Shown piece after piece: positions 11,576 to 25,269 of a stretch of 34,717 nt of DNA. The notes below the pieces were generated by a model. That model had not been told where the DNA came from, made no database searches, and saw only the letters and a list, made by a program, of their open reading frames with translations. Every line of letters starts with the position of its first letter. Within the stretch, counting starts at the first letter, position 1. Origin of the DNA: a virus; the IMG/VR virus record IMGVR_UViG_3300010885_002276, positions 1-34,717 of that record, one strand, 5' to 3'. Position numbers and translations under genes: made by a program.

Positions 11576-12226
11576 TTAAAACGGCACGTCGTCAGCCATG
11601 TCATCAAAGCCAGAACTGGCCTTGGGCTTGGTAAACTTGTCACCGCTTTGGCGGTCTTTCCACTCGGGAGTGTTTTGAATCTTTTCCTTGGTCTTGTTTC
11701 CAAAGGTTTCAAACAACGCCATGTCTGGGTTGTCAAGATCAAAAATCTTCAACTCGTTGTGCGGCTCTGGTAGCCCAGCTTTTTTGATTTGTGGCGATAC
11801 GGGGTTGATGCTGGAAATGTTGGTGTAGTCATTCCCATCGTTGCCCTTTTCTTTCACAATCGACAGCAAGGCCCAAGCACCCAAAATGTTTTTGAGTTGG
11901 AACCCATCGAGTTCATCCGACGTAAACGCTCGAGAGCGCCAGTTCTCAAGTTCTTGACGCAAGATGGCCTTGTCGGCAAGGCTTGCAGTAAAGTTCTTGC
12001 TGATGGATAGCGGCTCACCCTTTTCTGTGGAAAGAGGCTTGCCGTCGGCATCCTCGCTGTGCACCTCAAACTGCAACATCACCTTTGGTTGCTGCTTGGT
12101 TGTGCCCTTCCAAGCGGTGGTTTGTGTTCCCATATCAACGATACGGTAGCAACGCGCTAGGTGCATCCCGGGCGGGACAGCCTTAAATGAGGACGTGCCC
12201 CCTGATGCTTTCACTGTTAATCCCAT
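11576..12226 (-). CDS. Single-stranded DNA-binding protein-like
   Basis: 216 residues with AAGGAG before the ATG. The body is a beta-rich domain (PPGMHLARCYRIVDMGTQ, KVMLQFEVHSED, then SISKNFTASL, followed by helix LRQELENWRSRAFTSDEL and AWALLSIVKEKGNDGNDYTNI) that resembles a phage protein family I associate with ssDNA binding. The decisive sign is the disordered C-terminus ending FDDMADDVPF, the acidic tip used by bacterial SSB proteins to dock replication and repair partners. The predicted role is to coat ssDNA in replication and recombination and recruit the neighbouring exonuclease. The sequence is not classic E. coli Ssb, so the assignment rests on tip, fold pattern and context. Confidence 0.75.
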   Translation of the reverse strand: MGLTVKASGGTSSFKAVPPGMHLARCYRIVDMGTQTTAWKGTTKQQPKVMLQFEVHSEDADGKPLSTEKGEPLSISKNFTASLADKAILRQELENWRSRAFTSDELDGFQLKNILGAWALLSIVKEKGNDGNDYTNISSINPVSPQIKKAGLPEPHNELKIFDLDNPDMALFETFGNKTKEKIQNTPEWKDRQSGDKFTKPKASSGFDDMADDVPF

Positions 12227-12414: not shown

Positions 12415-12533
12415 AGTTGTTCGCTTTCACGTTAAACTGACCTCACTGTACCATGTTTAATTTGAACATACAACATATCTTGCGCAAATAATTTTTTAGT
12501 GTAAGATGGCCTTAACTCACCGAAAGGAGCCGC
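12415..12533. promoter_or_regulatory. Divergent control region between the two early operons
   Basis: 119 AT-rich bases separating the minus recombination operon from the plus replication operon. The minus promoter has -35 TTGTAT (12473-12468) and -10 TACAGT (12450-12445) with a 17-base spacer. The plus promoter has -35 TTGCGC (12480-12485), spacer 16 and -10 TAAGAT (12502-12507). The adjacent HTH gene is a natural regulator. Several T/A-rich half sites exist but no clear repeated operator. Confidence 0.7.
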
Positions 12534-12746
12534 ATGACGTTAAATGAATTTTTTGAGGGTAAACCACGGGGAACCAAAATCGCTTTAGCCCGTAAATTAG
12601 GCATCAGCAAGACTTGGTTTTCATTGATTTGTACGGGGCGACAACTGCCTAGCCCAGAACTCGCAAGAGACATTGAAATACACACAGGCAGGAAAGTGAA
12701 GAGGGCTGAACTTCGGCCCGACATTTTTGGAAAGACAGCGAAATGA
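12534..12746 (+). CDS. Cro/YdaS-like HTH transcriptional regulator
   Basis: 70 residues, AAGGAG upstream. The sequence TKIALARKLGISKTWFSLICTGRQLPSPELARDIEIHTG (residues ~14-52) is a canonical five-helix lambda-repressor-like HTH: LARKLGIS is helix 2, KTWFSLICTGR the recognition helix. The pattern matches the YdaS/Cro-type phage antitoxin-repressor family. It sits beside the divergent control region and probably binds it to switch between early programmes. It is first in the replication operon and overlaps the next start by ATGA, so it is autoregulated if it binds the adjacent promoter (inference). The host equivalent would be CI/Cro control, yet no integrase is in the window. Confidence 0.85.
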   Translation: MTLNEFFEGKPRGTKIALARKLGISKTWFSLICTGRQLPSPELARDIEIHTGRKVKRAELRPDIFGKTAK

Positions 12747-17214: not shown

Positions 17215-17510
17215 CCACCATTGCAGAGAGAAAGCACATGAGCAGGGTGGCCGCACTTGGTTGCGCCGTTTGTAGACGCATGAATTACCCCGGCACGCCC
17301 GCTGAACTGCATCACAAAAGGGCAGGGACGGGGGCTGGAAGGCGCTCCAGTCACTTCGAGGTCATCCCACTATGCCCTGAGCACCACAGAGGCGCTACGG
17401 GCTTCCACGGCCTTGGGACTAAGGGATTCCCCAAGCACTATGGCTATGACGAGGCCGACCTGCTGCAAGATACTCTCGAACTGCTCGGTGTTGTCGAAAA
17501 GCAACATTAG
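17211..17510 (+). CDS. Ref-like HNH/zinc recombination nuclease
   Basis: 99 residues from ATG 17211 (ATGA overlap); a frame opening further up would run through the membrane gene. Motifs: Cys18-x2-Cys21, ELHH (His34-His35), SHFEVIPLC-P-EHH (His48, Cys55, His58, His59) and GFHGLG (His66). This matches the Ref/phage HNH family related to phage P1 Ref, a RecA-dependent nuclease. Known family role: a metal-dependent nuclease acting on DNA bound by RecA. Here it is the last gene of the replication operon, just before a promoter. Assignment is by motif and recollection, not a search. Confidence 0.75.
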   Translation: MTTIAERKHMSRVAALGCAVCRRMNYPGTPAELHHKRAGTGAGRRSSHFEVIPLCPEHHRGATGFHGLGTKGFPKHYGYDEADLLQDTLELLGVVEKQH

Positions 17511-17530
17511 GGTATGTCCTAATAAAATAA

Positions 17531-17560
17531 TTGTTGCATCGTTTAATTCTGTATTACACT
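17531..17560 (+). promoter_or_regulatory. Repeated promoter box, copy 1
   Basis: GTTTAAT (17541-17547), six bases, TTACACT (17554-17560). A TTGTTG at 17531-17536 lies 18 bases before TACACT, acceptable as a sigma70 -35. The leader to the next ATG contains ACAGCGAA (17606-17613). It would drive the gene at 17614 and those behind it. Confidence 0.75.
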
Positions 17561-17613
17561 AGCATCATCGACACAGCAATTTCGCACAGTCGATACAGTG
17601 AAGGAACAGCGAA

Positions 17614-17898
17614 ATGAACAACGATCTAAACCTCAACAGCGTAGACACCCTCGGTTCTTTGTTGGCGCAAATCAAAGACCTGACAGATCAGGCTGATGCG
17701 ATCAAAGACGGCATCAAAGAGTCTGCCTCTGCTGGCGGTGCAAAAGTAGTCGAGGGTGCGCTCTTCAAGGCCACTTACATCGAGAGCAACCGCACGGTGT
17801 TCGACAAGGACGCATTTATCAAAGCCTTCGGCGCAGAGGCTTACGCCAAGTACACCAAGGTCAGCGCAGTGTTCAGCGTCAAGGTCACATCACGTTAA
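17614..17898 (+). CDS. Conserved small phage protein
   Basis: 94 residues, ATG with AAGGA upstream after the leader ACAGCGAA. The N-terminal half is a helix with a hydrophobic seam (VDTLGSLLAQIKDLTDQADAI). The C-terminal half is beta-rich (GALFKATYIESNRTVFDKDA) with the ending FSVKVTSR. I recall related phage proteins that lie near recombination genes; function is not established. It is the first gene behind promoter copy 1, implying early expression. Confidence 0.8.
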   Translation: MNNDLNLNSVDTLGSLLAQIKDLTDQADAIKDGIKESASAGGAKVVEGALFKATYIESNRTVFDKDAFIKAFGAEAYAKYTKVSAVFSVKVTSR

Positions 17899-17905
17899 TC
17901 AACCC

Positions 17906-17921
17906 AGCCCCTTCGGGGGCT
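17906..17921 (+). promoter_or_regulatory. UUCG-capped hairpin in the intergenic leader
   Basis: AGCCCC (17906-17911), loop TTCG, GGGGCT (17916-17921): a perfect 6-bp stem with a stable UUCG loop. No T-run follows; ACAGCGAAGGAG comes directly after, so it more likely stabilises or shields mRNA than terminates. Confidence 0.65.
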
Positions 17922-17939
17922 ACAGCGAAGGAGAGCGAA

Positions 17940-18128
17940 ATGGATAGTTTTACAGCAACAGGTTTGGCAGAGGGCTTCATCGAAGCCGAGAGCGAAGAGC
18001 AAGTAATCGAGGCATGGCAATACCTTGTCGACACTGGCCTCGCATGGAGACTGCAAGGCTGGTTTGGCCGCACAGCCCAGCACCTTATCAACGAAGGCGT
18101 GATCAGCGCACCAGAGGTGACGGCATGA
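17940..18128 (+). CDS. Conserved small phage protein
   Basis: 62 residues, ATG preceded by AAGGAG. Sequence MDSFTATGLAEGFIEAESEE, followed by VIEAWQYLVDTGLAWRLQGW and FGRTAQHLINEGVIS. This type is familiar to me from many phages and is compact and mostly helical. It overlaps the next start by ATGA. The known families are uncharacterised; a host-directed or regulatory role is only a guess from early position. Confidence 0.75.
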   Translation: MDSFTATGLAEGFIEAESEEQVIEAWQYLVDTGLAWRLQGWFGRTAQHLINEGVISAPEVTA

Positions 18129-18319
18129 AACCACATTTAAGTTACAGCGAACGCGGTTGGATTTTGATTTACCAAGGCTCACCACTTTGCGACTACAAAA
18201 AAACCAAAGAAGAGGTCATGGCAGTAGTGAAGTTTTTTAAGATCACATTGCCAGACTGCACATGGAACGGTGACCGTAGTGAGTGGGTTATTACGAACAC
18301 AATTGAGGAGGTGGCATGA
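18125..18319 (+). CDS. Small hypothetical protein
   Basis: 64 residues. The start at 18125 overlaps the preceding stop by ATGA; a longer frame (from 18014) would run inside the previous gene and is rejected. Aromatic and basic residues dominate (YSERGWILIYQGSP, KKTKEEVMAVVKFFKI), and WNGDRSEWVITNTIEE follows. No motif identifies it. Next start overlaps by ATGA. Confidence 0.7.
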   Translation: MKPHLSYSERGWILIYQGSPLCDYKKTKEEVMAVVKFFKITLPDCTWNGDRSEWVITNTIEEVA

Positions 18320-18501
18320 AACACACCGAGCACCAATACGTCGACCTTGGCTATCGTTTTGAAAAGGCCACCAGCCCAGCGGCTGGGCAAGCCACCGCGC
18401 AGGCCATTAGAACCCTGCTGGAGGCCGAAACGATTGAAGACCGAACCGAGGCCCGCTACCTTGTCGAGCGTGGCCGTCAAGAGGCAAGGGAGACAGCATG
18501 A
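18316..18501 (+). CDS. Small hypothetical protein, helical
   Basis: 61 residues, ATG after GAGGTGGC. The helical charged stretch (AQAIRTLLEAETIEDRTEAR then YLVERGRQEARET) is preceded by YVDLGYRFEKAT. ATGA joins it to both neighbours, marking a coupled run of tiny genes. Function unknown. Confidence 0.7.
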   Translation: MKHTEHQYVDLGYRFEKATSPAAGQATAQAIRTLLEAETIEDRTEARYLVERGRQEARETA

Positions 18502-18674
18502 CGCTGGAGTTTTACGGGCGTGCCATAGAACTGTTCTGGCAATCTTCTGCAAACAAGGGCTGGAAGTACCTTTACACAACCAATGCTTTTCGCACTTGCC
18601 GAGAGGCAGTGGCGGACGCCAAAGTTACCTTCCCCCAACTTTCAATCAAGGGCAACTTTGCCAAAAGGAAATAG
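18498..18674 (+). CDS. Small hypothetical protein (58 residues)
   Basis: ATG at 18498 overlaps the preceding stop. Sequence TLEFYGRAIELFWQSSANKG, followed by WKYLYTTNAFRTCREAVADA and a basic end GNFAKRK. Its last codons supply AAAAGGAA, the ribosome site of the following gene. It ends with a TAG stop, so amber is not recoded in this phage. Function not recognised. Confidence 0.65.
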   Translation: MTLEFYGRAIELFWQSSANKGWKYLYTTNAFRTCREAVADAKVTFPQLSIKGNFAKRK

Positions 18675-18675
18675 C

Positions 18676-19017
18676 ATGAACATCGACCACATCATCACTG
18701 ACGCAAAGACGGGCAAATTTAAGTGTGAGTTTTGCGGGACGGAGGAGTCTCGGCCTTTCATGCCAGAACCCATTGACGTCACTCTTGACGCAATGGATTA
18801 TTTCATCGGCAATCATAAATATTGCAGCAAACCACCAGCGGAGGCAGTTATGTCAGAGTACATCAAGGGATTCGACGCAGGCTATTCATACGTCCTAACC
18901 GAAGTCGAGAAGTGGATCAAGCGTAAGGAGTACGACCCCCAGTGCATAGCCCTTGAACTGTCGTTGCTGGCTCACCTCAAAATGGAAAAGGAAAACGGCA
19001 CTAGGGAAAGTACCTAA
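18676..19017 (+). CDS. Small protein with Cys-x2-Cys zinc motif
   Basis: 113 residues, ATG 18676 with AAGGA upstream. CEFCG at ~17-21 and a later lone Cys in HKYCSKPP suggest an incomplete zinc site. The second half is helical (VMSEYIKGFDAGYSYVLTEVE, LELSLLAHLKMEKENG). A longer frame to 18583 has no ribosome site and is rejected. Function unknown; it closes the run of genes before promoter copy 2. Confidence 0.7.
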   Translation: MNIDHIITDAKTGKFKCEFCGTEESRPFMPEPIDVTLDAMDYFIGNHKYCSKPPAEAVMSEYIKGFDAGYSYVLTEVEKWIKRKEYDPQCIALELSLLAHLKMEKENGTREST

Positions 19018-19034
19018 AAAATAATTTGAAATAG

Positions 19035-19064
19035 TTGTTGACTCGTTTAATCTGGGGTTATACT
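19035..19064 (+). promoter_or_regulatory. Repeated promoter box, copy 2
   Basis: TTGTTG (19035-19040), 18-base spacer containing GTTTAAT (19045-19051), then TTATACT (19058-19064). This is the copy closest to a sigma70 consensus. ACAGCGAA follows at 19088-19095 in the leader of the ArdC gene. Confidence 0.8.
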
Positions 19065-19112
19065 AAACACACTGCAACATCGCAGTAACAGCGAAACTAA
19101 CGAAAGCGAATC

Positions 19113-19895
19113 ATGGAAAAAGCAAACTTCTCCCAACTGCTCAACGATGCCATTAGCCAGCCCGGCATCATCAGCAAGTGCTACAGCACCTTCCACGGTT
19201 ACAGCATTGGCAACCAACTTCTGGCCTATAGCCAGTGCATCGCCCGCGACATCCCTATTGGCCCCATCGCCACCTTTAAGAAGTGGAAAGACCTTGGCCG
19301 CTCAGTGAGCAAAGACCAGAAGGCCATTGCCTTGGTTATGCCCGTTACCATTGCCAAAAAGGATGAGGCAGGCGAAAAGACTGGCGACGTGTTCAGCCTG
19401 TTCACCCTGCGCAACAACTGGTTCGTGCTTGGCCAAACCGAAGGCGAAGAGTACGTCAACGAGGTGGTGATTCCATCATGGGACAAGGCCAAGGCTCTTG
19501 AGACTCTTAACATCACTGAGGTTTCGTTCAACCACACCGACGGCAATTGCCAAGGCTATGCAGTAGGCCAAAACATCGCCGTCAACCCTGTGGCCGTGTT
19601 ACCCCACAAAACCCGCTTCCATGAATTGGCTCACGTTGTGCTCGGCCACACCAAGGAAGGTCAACTGTCCGACAGTGAGAGCACACCGAAGGATGTGCGC
19701 GAAGTTGAGGCGGAAGGCGTCGCCTACATCCTGTGCGCATTGCTCAACCTGTCTGGCTTGCACGAGTCACGCGGCTACATCCAAAGCTGGTTGCAAGGCG
19801 CTGAGATCACCGACAAGACAGCCCAACGCATTTTCAGCACCGCCAACAAAATTCTTGAGGCTGGTCAACATAAGGGTAAGTCCTTAGAGAAATAA
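19113..19895 (+). CDS. ardC: ArdC-like anti-restriction protein, zincin domain
   Basis: 260 residues. The N-terminal part (~1-75: FHGYSIGNQLLAYSQCI, FKKWKDLGRSVSKDQKAI) matches the ArdC N-terminal domain, known to bind ssDNA. The C-terminal half carries FHELAHVVLGH (His170-Glu171-x2-His174), a zincin zinc-binding motif, with EVEAEGVAYIL downstream (Glu200 as candidate third ligand or family Glu). Family knowledge: ArdC protects incoming plasmid or phage DNA against type I restriction. The gene has its own promoter box (copy 2), consistent with immediate-early expression. Length is close to phage ArdC proteins. Assigned with confidence at family level; the protection target is not visible. Confidence 0.9.
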   Translation: MEKANFSQLLNDAISQPGIISKCYSTFHGYSIGNQLLAYSQCIARDIPIGPIATFKKWKDLGRSVSKDQKAIALVMPVTIAKKDEAGEKTGDVFSLFTLRNNWFVLGQTEGEEYVNEVVIPSWDKAKALETLNITEVSFNHTDGNCQGYAVGQNIAVNPVAVLPHKTRFHELAHVVLGHTKEGQLSDSESTPKDVREVEAEGVAYILCALLNLSGLHESRGYIQSWLQGAEITDKTAQRIFSTANKILEAGQHKGKSLEK

Positions 19896-19921
19896 ATTAA
19901 GCAAGGGGGTTGACGGCCCCT

Positions 19922-19943
19922 TTGTTTAATGTAGAATTACACT
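19922..19943 (+). promoter_or_regulatory. Repeated promoter box, copy 3
   Basis: GTTTAAT (19924-19930), six bases, TTACACT (19937-19943). A TTGACG at 19910-19915 is 22 bases from TACACT, too far for a normal -35, so the conserved core may matter more than -35. The 21 bases 19922-19942 are identical to copy 4. ACAGCGAA follows at 19970-19977. Confidence 0.7.
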
Positions 19944-19990
19944 CATGCACCGAACATCTCGATGCTACAACAGCGAATCAGGAGCGAACC

Positions 19991-20818
19991 ATGACACACC
20001 CCTTTGAAAAAGCAGGCTTAGGTAAGGCCCCATTTTCTTGCACGCACGTCAGCCAGAATTTGTTCTATTTACCCGATGGAACCTGCAAGGCTGGTGGCTG
20101 CTGCGACTATTGCGGCACGGGCATTCGCTGGGAATTTTGGATCAAGGGTAGCGTGGCTGGTGCAAAGCAGTTTAAAGTTGGCTGCGATTGCGTTGCCAAG
20201 ACTGGCTGGGGCATCGAAGGTTTTGAGAAAGTTCGCGCAGACAACGCGAAAGTCCGCCGTCAAGAGGGCGCAGAAAAACGTGCAGAGAAACGTCGCGAGG
20301 AGCGTAAGGCTTGGATTGATGAGCAGCACGCTAACAGAGCCATTGAACGCGCTGAGGCTACCAAAGTATGGCGTGAGGCCAACAGCGCCTTAGCGGCCCG
20401 TTTGGATTCCTACACTGGCAAAAATGACTTCCTGTTGTCAATGATTGAGCGGATCGGGTACTGGGGCACACTGTCAAGCAAGCAAATGGAAGCTGCTGAG
20501 TCTTGCTTTGCTGCGTTAGACCGCGCTGAAGTTGCGCGTTTGACCAGCAAGCACATCGGCGCAGTAGGCGACAAGGTTACCCTGACTATTACAGTCGAGC
20601 GCATTGTGGTGCTCAAGTCCGAGTTCTACGGCGACAACTACATCACCATCGCCACCGATGAGCAGGGCAACACGATTGTCTACAAAGGCCGTACCGACAT
20701 CGGCGGCAAGGGCGACACCTGCACCATCAAGGCCAGCGTCAAAGACCACACCGAGTACAACGGTGTGAAGCAGACACTCATTCAGCGCCCAAAGGTGCTG
20801 GAAGTGGCGCAAGGGTAA
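19991..20818 (+). CDS. Cys-rich phage protein with probable OB-like C-terminus
   Basis: 275 residues from ATG 19991 (AGGAG upstream); a TTG further up lies in the promoter region and is rejected. Residues ~17-67 contain seven Cys (C17, C32, C37, C38, C41, C65, C67), a zinc-cluster pattern with CCDYCG and GCDC. A charged coiled-coil stretch follows (~80-125, KVRRQEGAEKRAEKRREERK). The C-terminal ~90 residues are beta-rich (TLTITVERIVVLKSEFYGDN, then YITIATDEQGNTIVYKG, then TCTIKASVKDHTEYNGVKQT), a pattern I associate with OB-like nucleic-acid-binding phage proteins. It has its own promoter box. Function unproven; a nucleic-acid-binding role is inferred. Confidence 0.7.
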   Translation: MTHPFEKAGLGKAPFSCTHVSQNLFYLPDGTCKAGGCCDYCGTGIRWEFWIKGSVAGAKQFKVGCDCVAKTGWGIEGFEKVRADNAKVRRQEGAEKRAEKRREERKAWIDEQHANRAIERAEATKVWREANSALAARLDSYTGKNDFLLSMIERIGYWGTLSSKQMEAAESCFAALDRAEVARLTSKHIGAVGDKVTLTITVERIVVLKSEFYGDNYITIATDEQGNTIVYKGRTDIGGKGDTCTIKASVKDHTEYNGVKQTLIQRPKVLEVAQG

Positions 20819-20859
20819 GCACTTAAAAAATATTTGCGTCAACCTTCTTGTGGGGTTGA

Positions 20860-20881
20860 TTGTTTAATGTAGAATTACACC
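20860..20881 (+). promoter_or_regulatory. Repeated promoter box, copy 4
   Basis: GTTTAAT (20862-20868), six bases, TTACACC (20875-20881). Identical to copy 3 over 21 bases (20860-20880). The leader is short (22 bases) and has ACAGCGAA (20886-20893) followed by AAGGAAT before the ATG at 20904. Confidence 0.7.
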
Positions 20882-20903
20882 ATCAACAGCGAAGGAATTT
20901 AAA

Positions 20904-21098
20904 ATGTCACAAGAAATTGAAACAATCATCAGCACCGAGAACGGTGTTCGTGTCAGCGTTAGTGAGTGGTATGACGGCTGTGTTTGGCTGAGTCTTATCA
21001 ACCGAGGCAGTTCGGCATACACCTCATTGACTCGCGCTGAGGCTGATCAACTGCTGGCAGGGTTGCAGGCCATCTTGAGCAAAGAGGTGTCTACATGA
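20904..21098 (+). CDS. Small hypothetical protein
   Basis: 64 residues, first gene behind promoter copy 4, AAGGA upstream. The N-terminus is beta-like (IETIISTENGVRVSVSEWYD), the end helical (LTRAEADQLLAGLQAILSKE). Joined to the next gene by ATGA. No family recognised; its place suggests an early host-interaction protein. Confidence 0.75.
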   Translation: MSQEIETIISTENGVRVSVSEWYDGCVWLSLINRGSSAYTSLTRAEADQLLAGLQAILSKEVST

Positions 21099-23853: not shown

Positions 23854-25269
23854 ATGCTTGCAGAACTGCTCTCAGACCCTGAAGTAGCGGCAGAATTTGA
23901 TGCGAAGTCTGAGCATGACCGCATCGCTTACATCGCCCATGCATCATGGGTGGTTGGTGCTCACAAGTACCAAGTGCCCCCACCGCTGGCGATGGACTAC
24001 ACCGTCTGGATGATGCTGGCTGGCCGAGGGGCTGGTAAGACAAGGTCGGCGGCTGAGGCTCTGTGGTGGTGGGCGTGGATCACCCCCAACTCTCGGTGTC
24101 TGGTGCTGGCCCCCACATCCAACGACGTGAAGTTCACCTGCTTCGAGGGTCAGTCGGGTTTGCTGGCCGTGATCCCCAAGGAACTGATAGTCGACTACAA
24201 CAAGCAAGACCACCAGATCAAGTTGAGCAACGGCTCAATCATCCGAGGTATCAGTGCTGACGCCTACGAGCGGCTGCGCGGCCCCCAGTGGAACTACGCA
24301 TGGTGCGATGAGTTGGCCGCATTCCAATACCTTGGGGCTGGCGAAGCATGGGACATGATGATGATGGGCCTGCGTCTTGGTGACCAGCCTCGGGTGATTG
24401 TCACAACAACGCCTAAGCCCAAAGACCTGATCATCGACCTGATCGGACGTGAGGGGGCTGATGTGGTGATTGACCGCGCCAGCACTTATGCCAACAGGGC
24501 TAACCTAGCCGAGAGTTTCAGCAGGCAGCTTGAGCAGTACAAGGGGACGAAGCTGTACCAGCAGGAGGTGCTCGGCGAGATTGTCGACCTCGAGGACGGT
24601 AAGGTAGTCTCGCGGGATATGTTCAAGATGTGGCCCGCAGGCAGGCCGTTCCCTAAGTTCGAGTACATCATCCAGTCCTATGACTGCGCGTACACCGACA
24701 AGGAATACAACGACCCAACGGCCATGACCACTTGGGGCGTGTTCAAGCCCGACGATGGCCCGATGAGTGTCCTGCTGATCGACTGCTGGGCGGAGCACCT
24801 GACGTTCCCCAAGCTGAAGGAGCGCGTGCAAGATGAGTGGCGCGTGTCCTATGGCGAGGGCAGAGATGCCAAGCGGCCTGACCTGATATTGGTCGAGGAG
24901 AAGGCGGCTGGCCTGTCCCTGATTCAAGAGTTGCAGAAGGCGCACCTGATGGTGAGGGGCTACAACCCGGGCCGAGCGGACAAGATGCAGCGCCTTCAGA
25001 TCACAGCGGCCATCTTCGTTGCCAAGCGTGTCTGGCTTCCCGAGTCGGAGGTTCACAAGGGCTACGTCAAGGACTGGGTCGAGGGGTTCCTATCGCAGTT
25101 GTGCGCATTCCCTGACTCCCAGCATGACGACTACGTTGACTCGGCAACTCAGGCGATGAGGTGGCTCAAGGATATGGGCTGGCTCGACATCGACCCCGAG
25201 CCAAGATATGATGACGACGACGACTACTTCGATGCCCAACCTGTGCGGGTCAACCCCTACGCGGTCTAA
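23854..25269 (+). CDS. terL: Terminase large subunit (ATPase-nuclease)
   Basis: 471 residues; ATG 23854 is the first start in frame after a TAG. ATPase: Walker A GRGAGKT (57-63), Walker B-like WNYAWCDELAAF with Asp152-Glu153, and TTTPKP coupling motif (~184-189). Nuclease (RNase H-like): Asp277 in QSYDCAYTD, Glu348/Glu349 in LILVEEKAAG, and HDDYVDS (Asp425, Asp426, Asp429). It powers DNA translocation into the prohead and cuts concatemers. An acidic tail with five Asp near the end (~455-460) precedes the stop. Length and motif order are typical of podovirus and siphovirus enzymes. It follows terS and precedes the giant PcfJ gene. Confidence 0.97.
   Translation: MLAELLSDPEVAAEFDAKSEHDRIAYIAHASWVVGAHKYQVPPPLAMDYTVWMMLAGRGAGKTRSAAEALWWWAWITPNSRCLVLAPTSNDVKFTCFEGQSGLLAVIPKELIVDYNKQDHQIKLSNGSIIRGISADAYERLRGPQWNYAWCDELAAFQYLGAGEAWDMMMMGLRLGDQPRVIVTTTPKPKDLIIDLIGREGADVVIDRASTYANRANLAESFSRQLEQYKGTKLYQQEVLGEIVDLEDGKVVSRDMFKMWPAGRPFPKFEYIIQSYDCAYTDKEYNDPTAMTTWGVFKPDDGPMSVLLIDCWAEHLTFPKLKERVQDEWRVSYGEGRDAKRPDLILVEEKAAGLSLIQELQKAHLMVRGYNPGRADKMQRLQITAAIFVAKRVWLPESEVHKGYVKDWVEGFLSQLCAFPDSQHDDYVDSATQAMRWLKDMGWLDIDPEPRYDDDDDYFDAQPVRVNPYAV

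Follow-up and report, generated by a model that had tools for sequence, protein, structure and literature searches.

Four promoters of a freshwater phage share a symmetric element that is probably the operator of its own YdaS/Cro-like protein

In the cryptic prophage CP-933P of E. coli O157:H7, the footprints of the YdaS protein extend over the two divergent promoters, the protein is a repressor that behaves like Cro, and the footprinted region contains inverted repeats with the half-site GTTTAGTAA, which the authors could not assign to YdaS alone (PMC8630535). A repeated element of a different kind, the SAS/ESAS of Cluster K mycobacteriophages, is a short asymmetric motif located just before many gene starts, with an inverted repeat directly upstream in about half of the cases and with a consensus that depends on the lineage (PMC3203893, PMC12699233). 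Here we consider the repeated element GTTTAAT-N6-TTAYACY of a phage described as freshwater, which is represented by the 34.7-kb virus record IMGVR_UViG_3300010885_002276 of IMG/VR (positions 1 to 34,717; this whole stretch is hereafter the window). We argue, with a confidence of roughly three in four and on the strength of sequence comparison, that the copies of this element are sigma70-type promoters with 19-bp operators, and that these operators would be bound by a dimer of a YdaS/Cro-like protein encoded in the same window, resulting in repression of putatively early transcription units in the manner of Cro.

A pattern search of the window finds the element exactly at 17541, 19045, 19924 and 20862, always on the plus strand, in agreement with the preliminary description of this DNA, and finds one further near-match, with two mismatches, at 12455; in shuffled sequence, matches with up to two mismatches number 0.44 on average and 2 at most. 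As was also noticed before, each copy lies in a gap ahead of a start codon, with ACAGCGAA behind it (17606, 19088, 19970 and 20886), copies 3 and 4 are identical over 21 bases (ttGTTTAATGTAGAATTACAC), and copies 1 and 2 have TTGTTG 18 bp from TAYACT. What has to be given up is the notion of a single inseparable composite: the operator with its promoter, the leader hairpin and the start-associated ACAGCGAA come apart.

The core of the element is a 19-bp dyad, GTTTAAn-N5-nTTAnAC, in which the arms GTTTAAn and nTTAYAC nearly mirror each other; dyad and spacing are read directly from the sequence. In relatives, the perfect palindrome GTTTAA-N7-TTAAAC, a form that was part of no search pattern, occurs at 53 sites (106 strand readings, each site being read on both strands), all of them with the spacing of 7, with none at spacings 0-6 or 8-24. 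The relaxed dyad gives 1-5 forward and 0-3 reverse matches in each of 15 large records, most of these being the same sites seen from either strand; 0 matches were obtained with the pattern reversed as a control. Furthermore, in 307 cassettes that were chosen by the leader motif and the -10 alone, GTTTAAT at -26 to -20 shows the strongest conservation, if the -10 that served for selection is set aside. The conserved core had been taken for either an operator or an activator site; the first part of this suggestion is supported, the core being a putative operator, and the second ranks below a repressor site, given that the -10 lies within the dyad.

Two sigma70-type promoter layouts overlie the dyad, class I in copies 1 and 2 and class II in copies 3 and 4:

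17531-17560, plus strand: promoter copy 1, class I, with TTGTTG-N18 or TTGCAT-N15 and the -10 TACACT at 17555-17560; dyad at 17541-17559
19038-19064, plus strand: promoter copy 2, class I, with TTGACT at 19038-19043, N15 and TATACT at 19059-19064; dyad at 19045-19063
19910-19942, plus strand: promoter copy 3, class II, with TTGACG at 19910-19915, N16 and TAGAAT at 19932-19937; dyad at 19924-19942
20848-20880, plus strand: promoter copy 4, class II, with TTGTGG at 20848-20853, N16 and TAGAAT at 20870-20875; dyad at 20862-20880

In class I, the right arm of the dyad doubles as the -10, with -35-like hexamers 15-16 bp upstream, and the palindromic versions read TTGACA-N16-TAAACT. In class II, the -10, TAGAAT or TACAAT, lies in the dyad centre, and TTGACA is the commonest hexamer 16 bp upstream of it in relatives (25 of 45). 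All 34 class II promoters that were selected only by TTGAC-N17-TAnAAT and the leader have a (G/A)TTTAA left arm, and all 34 have a right arm that starts with TACA or TAAAC, so that the arms are retained where RNA polymerase has no need of them; between the classes, the -10 shifts by 6 bp relative to the core and the arms stay. These registers, too, are a matter of reading the sequence, and they remove the puzzle of copies 3 and 4, which were thought to lack a normal -35: the -10 had been placed in the wrong register, and with TAGAAT in this role the pairs TTGACG-N16-TAGAAT and TTGTGG-N16-TAGAAT are found. A plain spacer of 15 or 22 bp for these two copies was dropped once this register was found. 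Left arms of the CCCTTTG and CTTCAAG types likewise ceased to be exceptions, being either class II sites in the wrong register or sites of the TKQW type described below, with TTTCAC after the -10.

The regulator of these dyads is very probably, to judge from sequence patterns, the YdaS/Cro-like protein, the locus of which comprises the following features:

12534-12746, plus strand: gene of the YdaS/Cro-like helix-turn-helix protein, 70 amino acids, the proposed trans regulator (Pfam YdaS_toxin PF15943, 38.1 bits, cut-off 30)
12499-12517, plus strand: weak operator-like dyad GTGTAAG-ATGGC-CTTAACT, lying across the -10 and start of the promoter that serves the cro-like gene itself
12431-12437 and 12455-12461: half-site pair GTTAAAC and GTTTAAT, separated by 17 bp, in the intergenic region of the divergent cro locus, in positions kept across many cro-like loci

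The AlphaFold model of this protein is a helix-turn-helix fold (pLDDT 88.8), for which Foldseek ranks first 8co2_A, the YdaS of CP-933P (TM 0.85, 38% identity); the recognition helix comprises residues 26-34 (S25-K-T-W-F-S-L31). Exactly one YdaS gene is present in each of the 15 large records (15/15), and no further regulator is recognised by Pfam or PHROGs among the genes scanned around the cassettes. The cro-like gene sits at a divergent promoter with conserved half-sites, in the gap 12415-12533 as well as in the homologous gaps, and the outward-facing GTTAAAC-N17-GTTTAAT, the spacing of which is fixed in many relatives, is possibly a second binding mode of the regulator. The position of the dyad over the gene's own promoter is taken in relatives by GTGTATG-N5-CTTAAAC or, in TKQW genomes, by GTTTCAC.

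The assignment draws on the covariation of recognition helix and operator among regulator homologues, which were collected by protein and not by operator. Homologues of ardC were found on 44 viral contigs, and the search of related phages for the core followed by ACAGCGAA, which had been proposed at the outset, yielded 87 viral DNA stretches in which the cassette stands before many different genes. Specifically, genomes with GTTTAA operators encode the helix SKTW(F/M/L)SL and those with GTGAAA operators encode TKQWMAA, the changed residues lying in the recognition helix. Counted by contig, GTGAA cassettes accompany TKQW regulators in 24 of 24 cases and other helices in 0 of 53, counts for which a Fisher test ignores relatedness. 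The promoter of the 94-amino-acid gene behind copy 1 has GTGAAA in 17/17 cases with TKQW and in 0/55 with other helices; the regulator's own promoter has TTTCAC in 20 of 21 TKQW loci and in no SKTW loci, most of the latter having TTAAAC or TTAA(C/T). On the best tree of the 94-amino-acid gene the helix type switches seven times, two of these on well-supported branches, and the operator follows each time; on the ardC tree GTGAA promoters appear in three places, and their union in one clade is rejected (p 3.9e-5). A third pairing is found in the distant complete phage MW202545, the regulator of which is 45% identical and has the helix TLTWLGI: here two copies of [AG]TCTAA-N7-TTAGA[CT] stand ahead of genes, with 7 as the only spacing, and half-sites of this kind precede the regulator gene.

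On contig L038, a GTGAAA promoter at ardC stands beside GTTTAA sites; this ardC unit was possibly imported freshly, its operator not yet matching the regulator. Among 84,980 bacterial and archaeal genomes, the core with ACAGCGAA gave only two scattered matches, in Rheinheimera (Rheinheimera nanhaiensis, L131 941-990) and Ca. Minthenecus, and the cassette was therefore rejected as a host feature. Limnohabitans phage DC33 has only the region of the 94-amino-acid gene in common with the window and lacks the core; its record (L005, PQ492659.1) files the phage under Inoviridae, and the 39-kb genome has been placed in Caudoviricetes (PMC12195039).

The scheme that we envisage is that a dimer of the YdaS/Cro-like protein binds the GTTTAAn-N5-nTTAnAC dyads. 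Since these extend over both the -10 and the spacer, the bound protein would most likely stand in the way of RNA polymerase. Upon accumulation, the protein would turn down its own promoter and the divergent leftward promoter, and also the units downstream, which begin with these genes:

17614-17898, plus strand: 94-amino-acid gene, phrog_6244, homologues of which carry perfect palindromes in many relatives
19113-19895, plus strand: ArdC-like anti-restriction gene (Pfam ArdcN, 38.5 bits, cut-off 22.6)
19991-20818, plus strand: 275-amino-acid gene, function unassigned (phrog_27218 and others)
20904-21098, plus strand: 64-amino-acid gene behind copy 4, function unassigned

A phage regulon that includes ardC, as the preliminary description proposed, is supported, as is the repeated promoter element; the ArdC-like gene stands behind copy 2. 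The scheme would resemble the shut-off of early transcription by Cro, although there would be no CI partner. Self-limiting shut-off of this type is the best-supported function because there is no integrase or CI-like repressor in the 15 large relatives: profile searches of these records, which are labelled linear and may be incomplete, gave no Phage_integrase, Resolvase or S24 peptidase, and no HTH_3 match above the cut-off. Binding and repression, and likewise their timing, we infer from the patterns described above. At the 5' end of the mRNA there would be a short stem-loop, the probable role of which is to protect or regulate that end, and a separate AGCGAA element would probably aid the start of translation.

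Several observations weigh against this interpretation, the possible incompleteness of the 15 records being one of them. The window's own cro site is weak, and the sites in the window are imperfect dyads with one arm bent towards the -10. The preference for repression over activation comes from the position of the sites and from analogy. In one case (L276), the helix SKTWLSL is paired with GTGTAA operators, so that the helix alone is not the whole recognition code. The sign test on the supported branches cannot reach 0.05 because it has only two pairs, and, more generally, the TKQW proteins form one close-knit group, which makes the independent switches few; the phylogenetic support is strong in pattern but comes from few such switches. 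The same shared ancestry would inflate the association, which suits the view that a host regulator, or a phage protein that escaped recognition, reads the dyad, with the Cro-like protein merely co-inherited. We consider this unlikely: the ardC and 94-amino-acid gene trees are discordant with the regulator type and the operator still tracks the resident regulator, the altered residues fall in the recognition helix, the regulator's own promoter changes identically, MW202545 provides the third regulator/operator pair, and the scan of the cassette neighbours offered no other candidate.

It appears rather unlikely that the primary element is the RNA leader, that is, the stem-loop together with ACAGCGAA, acting in antitermination or translational control, and that the promoter is incidental. 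The leader, nonetheless, has conspicuous features of its own:

17567-17594, plus strand: leader stem-loop of copy 1, ATCGAC at 17567-17572 and GTCGAT at 17589-17594
19071-19086, plus strand: leader stem-loop of copy 2, ACTGC and GCAGT, then ACAGCGAA at 19088-19095
19947-19965, plus strand: leader stem-loop of copy 3, GCACCGA-ACATC-TCGATGC with one mismatch, then ACAGCGAA at 19970-19977
17606-17613, plus strand: ACAGCGAA before the 94-amino-acid gene
17922-17929, plus strand: fifth ACAGCGAA, with no promoter core, before the gene at 17940

The stem of copy 3 is perfect in a relative (GCACCGA/TCGGTGC). Of 207 distinct leaders, 84% contain a stem of 4 bp or longer whose end lies 0-6 nt ahead of a ACAGCGAA-type motif, versus 27% of shuffles, and for stems of 5 bp or longer the figures are 46% versus 7%, an enrichment observed in the sequences as such. 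There are 45 stem types, and their arms cross-pair in only 21 of 402 combinations, so that the changes in stem sequence preserve pairing (the stems were compared directly; a MAFFT alignment of ardC leaders leaves them out of register). In MW202545, a long inverted repeat, CTCTCCTCA...TGAGGAGAG, likewise opens the leader behind the operator (L280, 4700-4800).

The association of the motif with starts is strong and just as directly observed. The window contains 9 copies of ACAGCGAA versus 1.5 expected, and several of these precede genes that lack the core (rightward at 12743, 13787 and 15021, leftward at 12217 and 11576), in addition to the one at 17922, the presence of which had been pointed out before. 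Among 3109 stretches of 30 nt before starts, AGCGAA occurs in 10.9%, versus 1.3% within genes, and its distribution peaks at -8 and -6 from ATG. ACAGCGAA is tied to gene starts and occurs independently of the promoter. None of the 46 genes of DC33 that were checked is preceded by AGCGAA, which is therefore not general for Limnohabitans phages. A leader as the primary element would leave the symmetric DNA core and its covariation with the regulator unexplained, copy 4 has a short leader without a stem-loop (ACAGCGAA at 20886-20893), and an Rfam search gave no match. A role of the RNA leader may be true in addition to that of the operator, the functions given above for the stem-loop and for AGCGAA being putative.

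The Cro-like protein might also activate these promoters rather than repress them, inasmuch as class I has spacers of 15-16 bp and weak -10s (TAAACT, TACACT) and might need help. This is quite unlikely, given that a dyad over the -10 and the spacer is not the usual seat of activators with this fold, that class II and the palindromic promoters are near-consensus TTGACA-N16, and that the characterised YdaS behaves as Cro (PMC8630535). The core exceeds the -35 in conservation, which would suit a promoter that is recognised by a modified RNA polymerase or by a sigma factor of the phage. This reading is most improbable, since sigma70-type hexamers at N15-16 fit both classes and make such an enzyme unneeded, the -10 moves by 6 bp against fixed arms, the arms are symmetric, the regulator covaries and no sigma factor or RNA polymerase is found among the window families scanned; of the two factors once suggested to read the element, only a transcription factor stands, with the YdaS/Cro-like protein as the candidate.

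At 17507-17522 and 19002-19016, immediately ahead of the A/T-rich tract in copies 1 and 2, there is a second inverted repeat, TTAGG-N6-CCTAA or TAGG-N7-CCTA. Many relatives retain it (TTAGGGAAARTACYTA, TTAGGGTTTTCCTTAG); others have a GC-rich hairpin in its place. This repeat may serve to terminate the unit upstream, or it may be a further binding site.

Taken together, these data allow us to propose, tentatively and with slightly less than even confidence, that in a large group of freshwater phages without recognisable integrase or CI a lone Cro-like protein governs scattered units, and that its specificity has switched repeatedly (GTTTAA, GTGAAA, GTGTAA and TCTAA half-sites), all operators of the genome following. 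If true, this would be a natural series of protein-DNA recognition in a Cro system used without lysogeny, and the value would lie in the many natural pairs combined with the absence of a recognisable lysogeny module: hundreds of regulator/operator pairs would provide testable data on specificity change in Cro-like proteins. A widespread uncultured group of freshwater phages would gain a named candidate regulator with its operators, ardC and many unassigned genes could be placed in one regulon, and the question would arise which role is left to Cro in a phage that lacks CI. AGCGAA and the leader stem-loop, in turn, parallel the still unexplained SAS/ESAS of mycobacteriophages and would be easier to test in a proteobacterial system.

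Among the known systems, the YdaS of CP-933P (PDB 8co2, 8c7k) belongs to the same Pfam family and fold, its gene likewise neighbours a divergent promoter and precedes replication genes, and the half-site GTTTAGTAA is close to GTTTAAT. The differences are that CP-933P has the CI analogue PaaR2 and the CII analogue YdaT, neither of which was found here, that the sites of the window are found 5-8 kb downstream as well, in several distal promoters, and that the dyad has 19 bp as opposed to the 18-bp repeats of the prophage. AGCGAA resembles the SAS of Cluster K in its position just upstream of start codons, and the adjoining stem-loop resembles ESAS, although the stems have 4-9 bp here and the repeats 17 bp there. 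The sequence of SAS is a different one, GGGATAGGAGCCC, with a single match in the window, at 25084 with two mismatches, which is not above chance (0.63 expected); moreover, the present system has a separate symmetric operator and promoter upstream, for which a trans factor can be proposed. The stoperators of Cluster A (PMC6550527) are similarly numerous in each genome and drift in sequence with the phage's own repressor, but they are asymmetric 13-bp sites, located mostly outside promoters, that block elongation, whereas the dyads, all four in the window as well as those read in relatives, are symmetric and overlap promoters. The ArdK/CUP regulon of IncN plasmids, as far as it is described in PMC6289460, which cites Delver and Belogurov 1997 for it, similarly places separate units, anti-restriction genes included, behind several repeated upstream elements and under one small self-controlling repressor; by that description, with which alone the comparison was made, it differs in being a plasmid system with another regulator and a 13-nt consensus. 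Of the lambda-type lysis/lysogeny switch, neither a CI-type repressor gene nor an integrase was found in the 15 large, possibly incomplete, records. The system of the window is a variant of known Cro/YdaS regulation and not a new category: a multi-part and coherent phage regulon with a nameable regulator.

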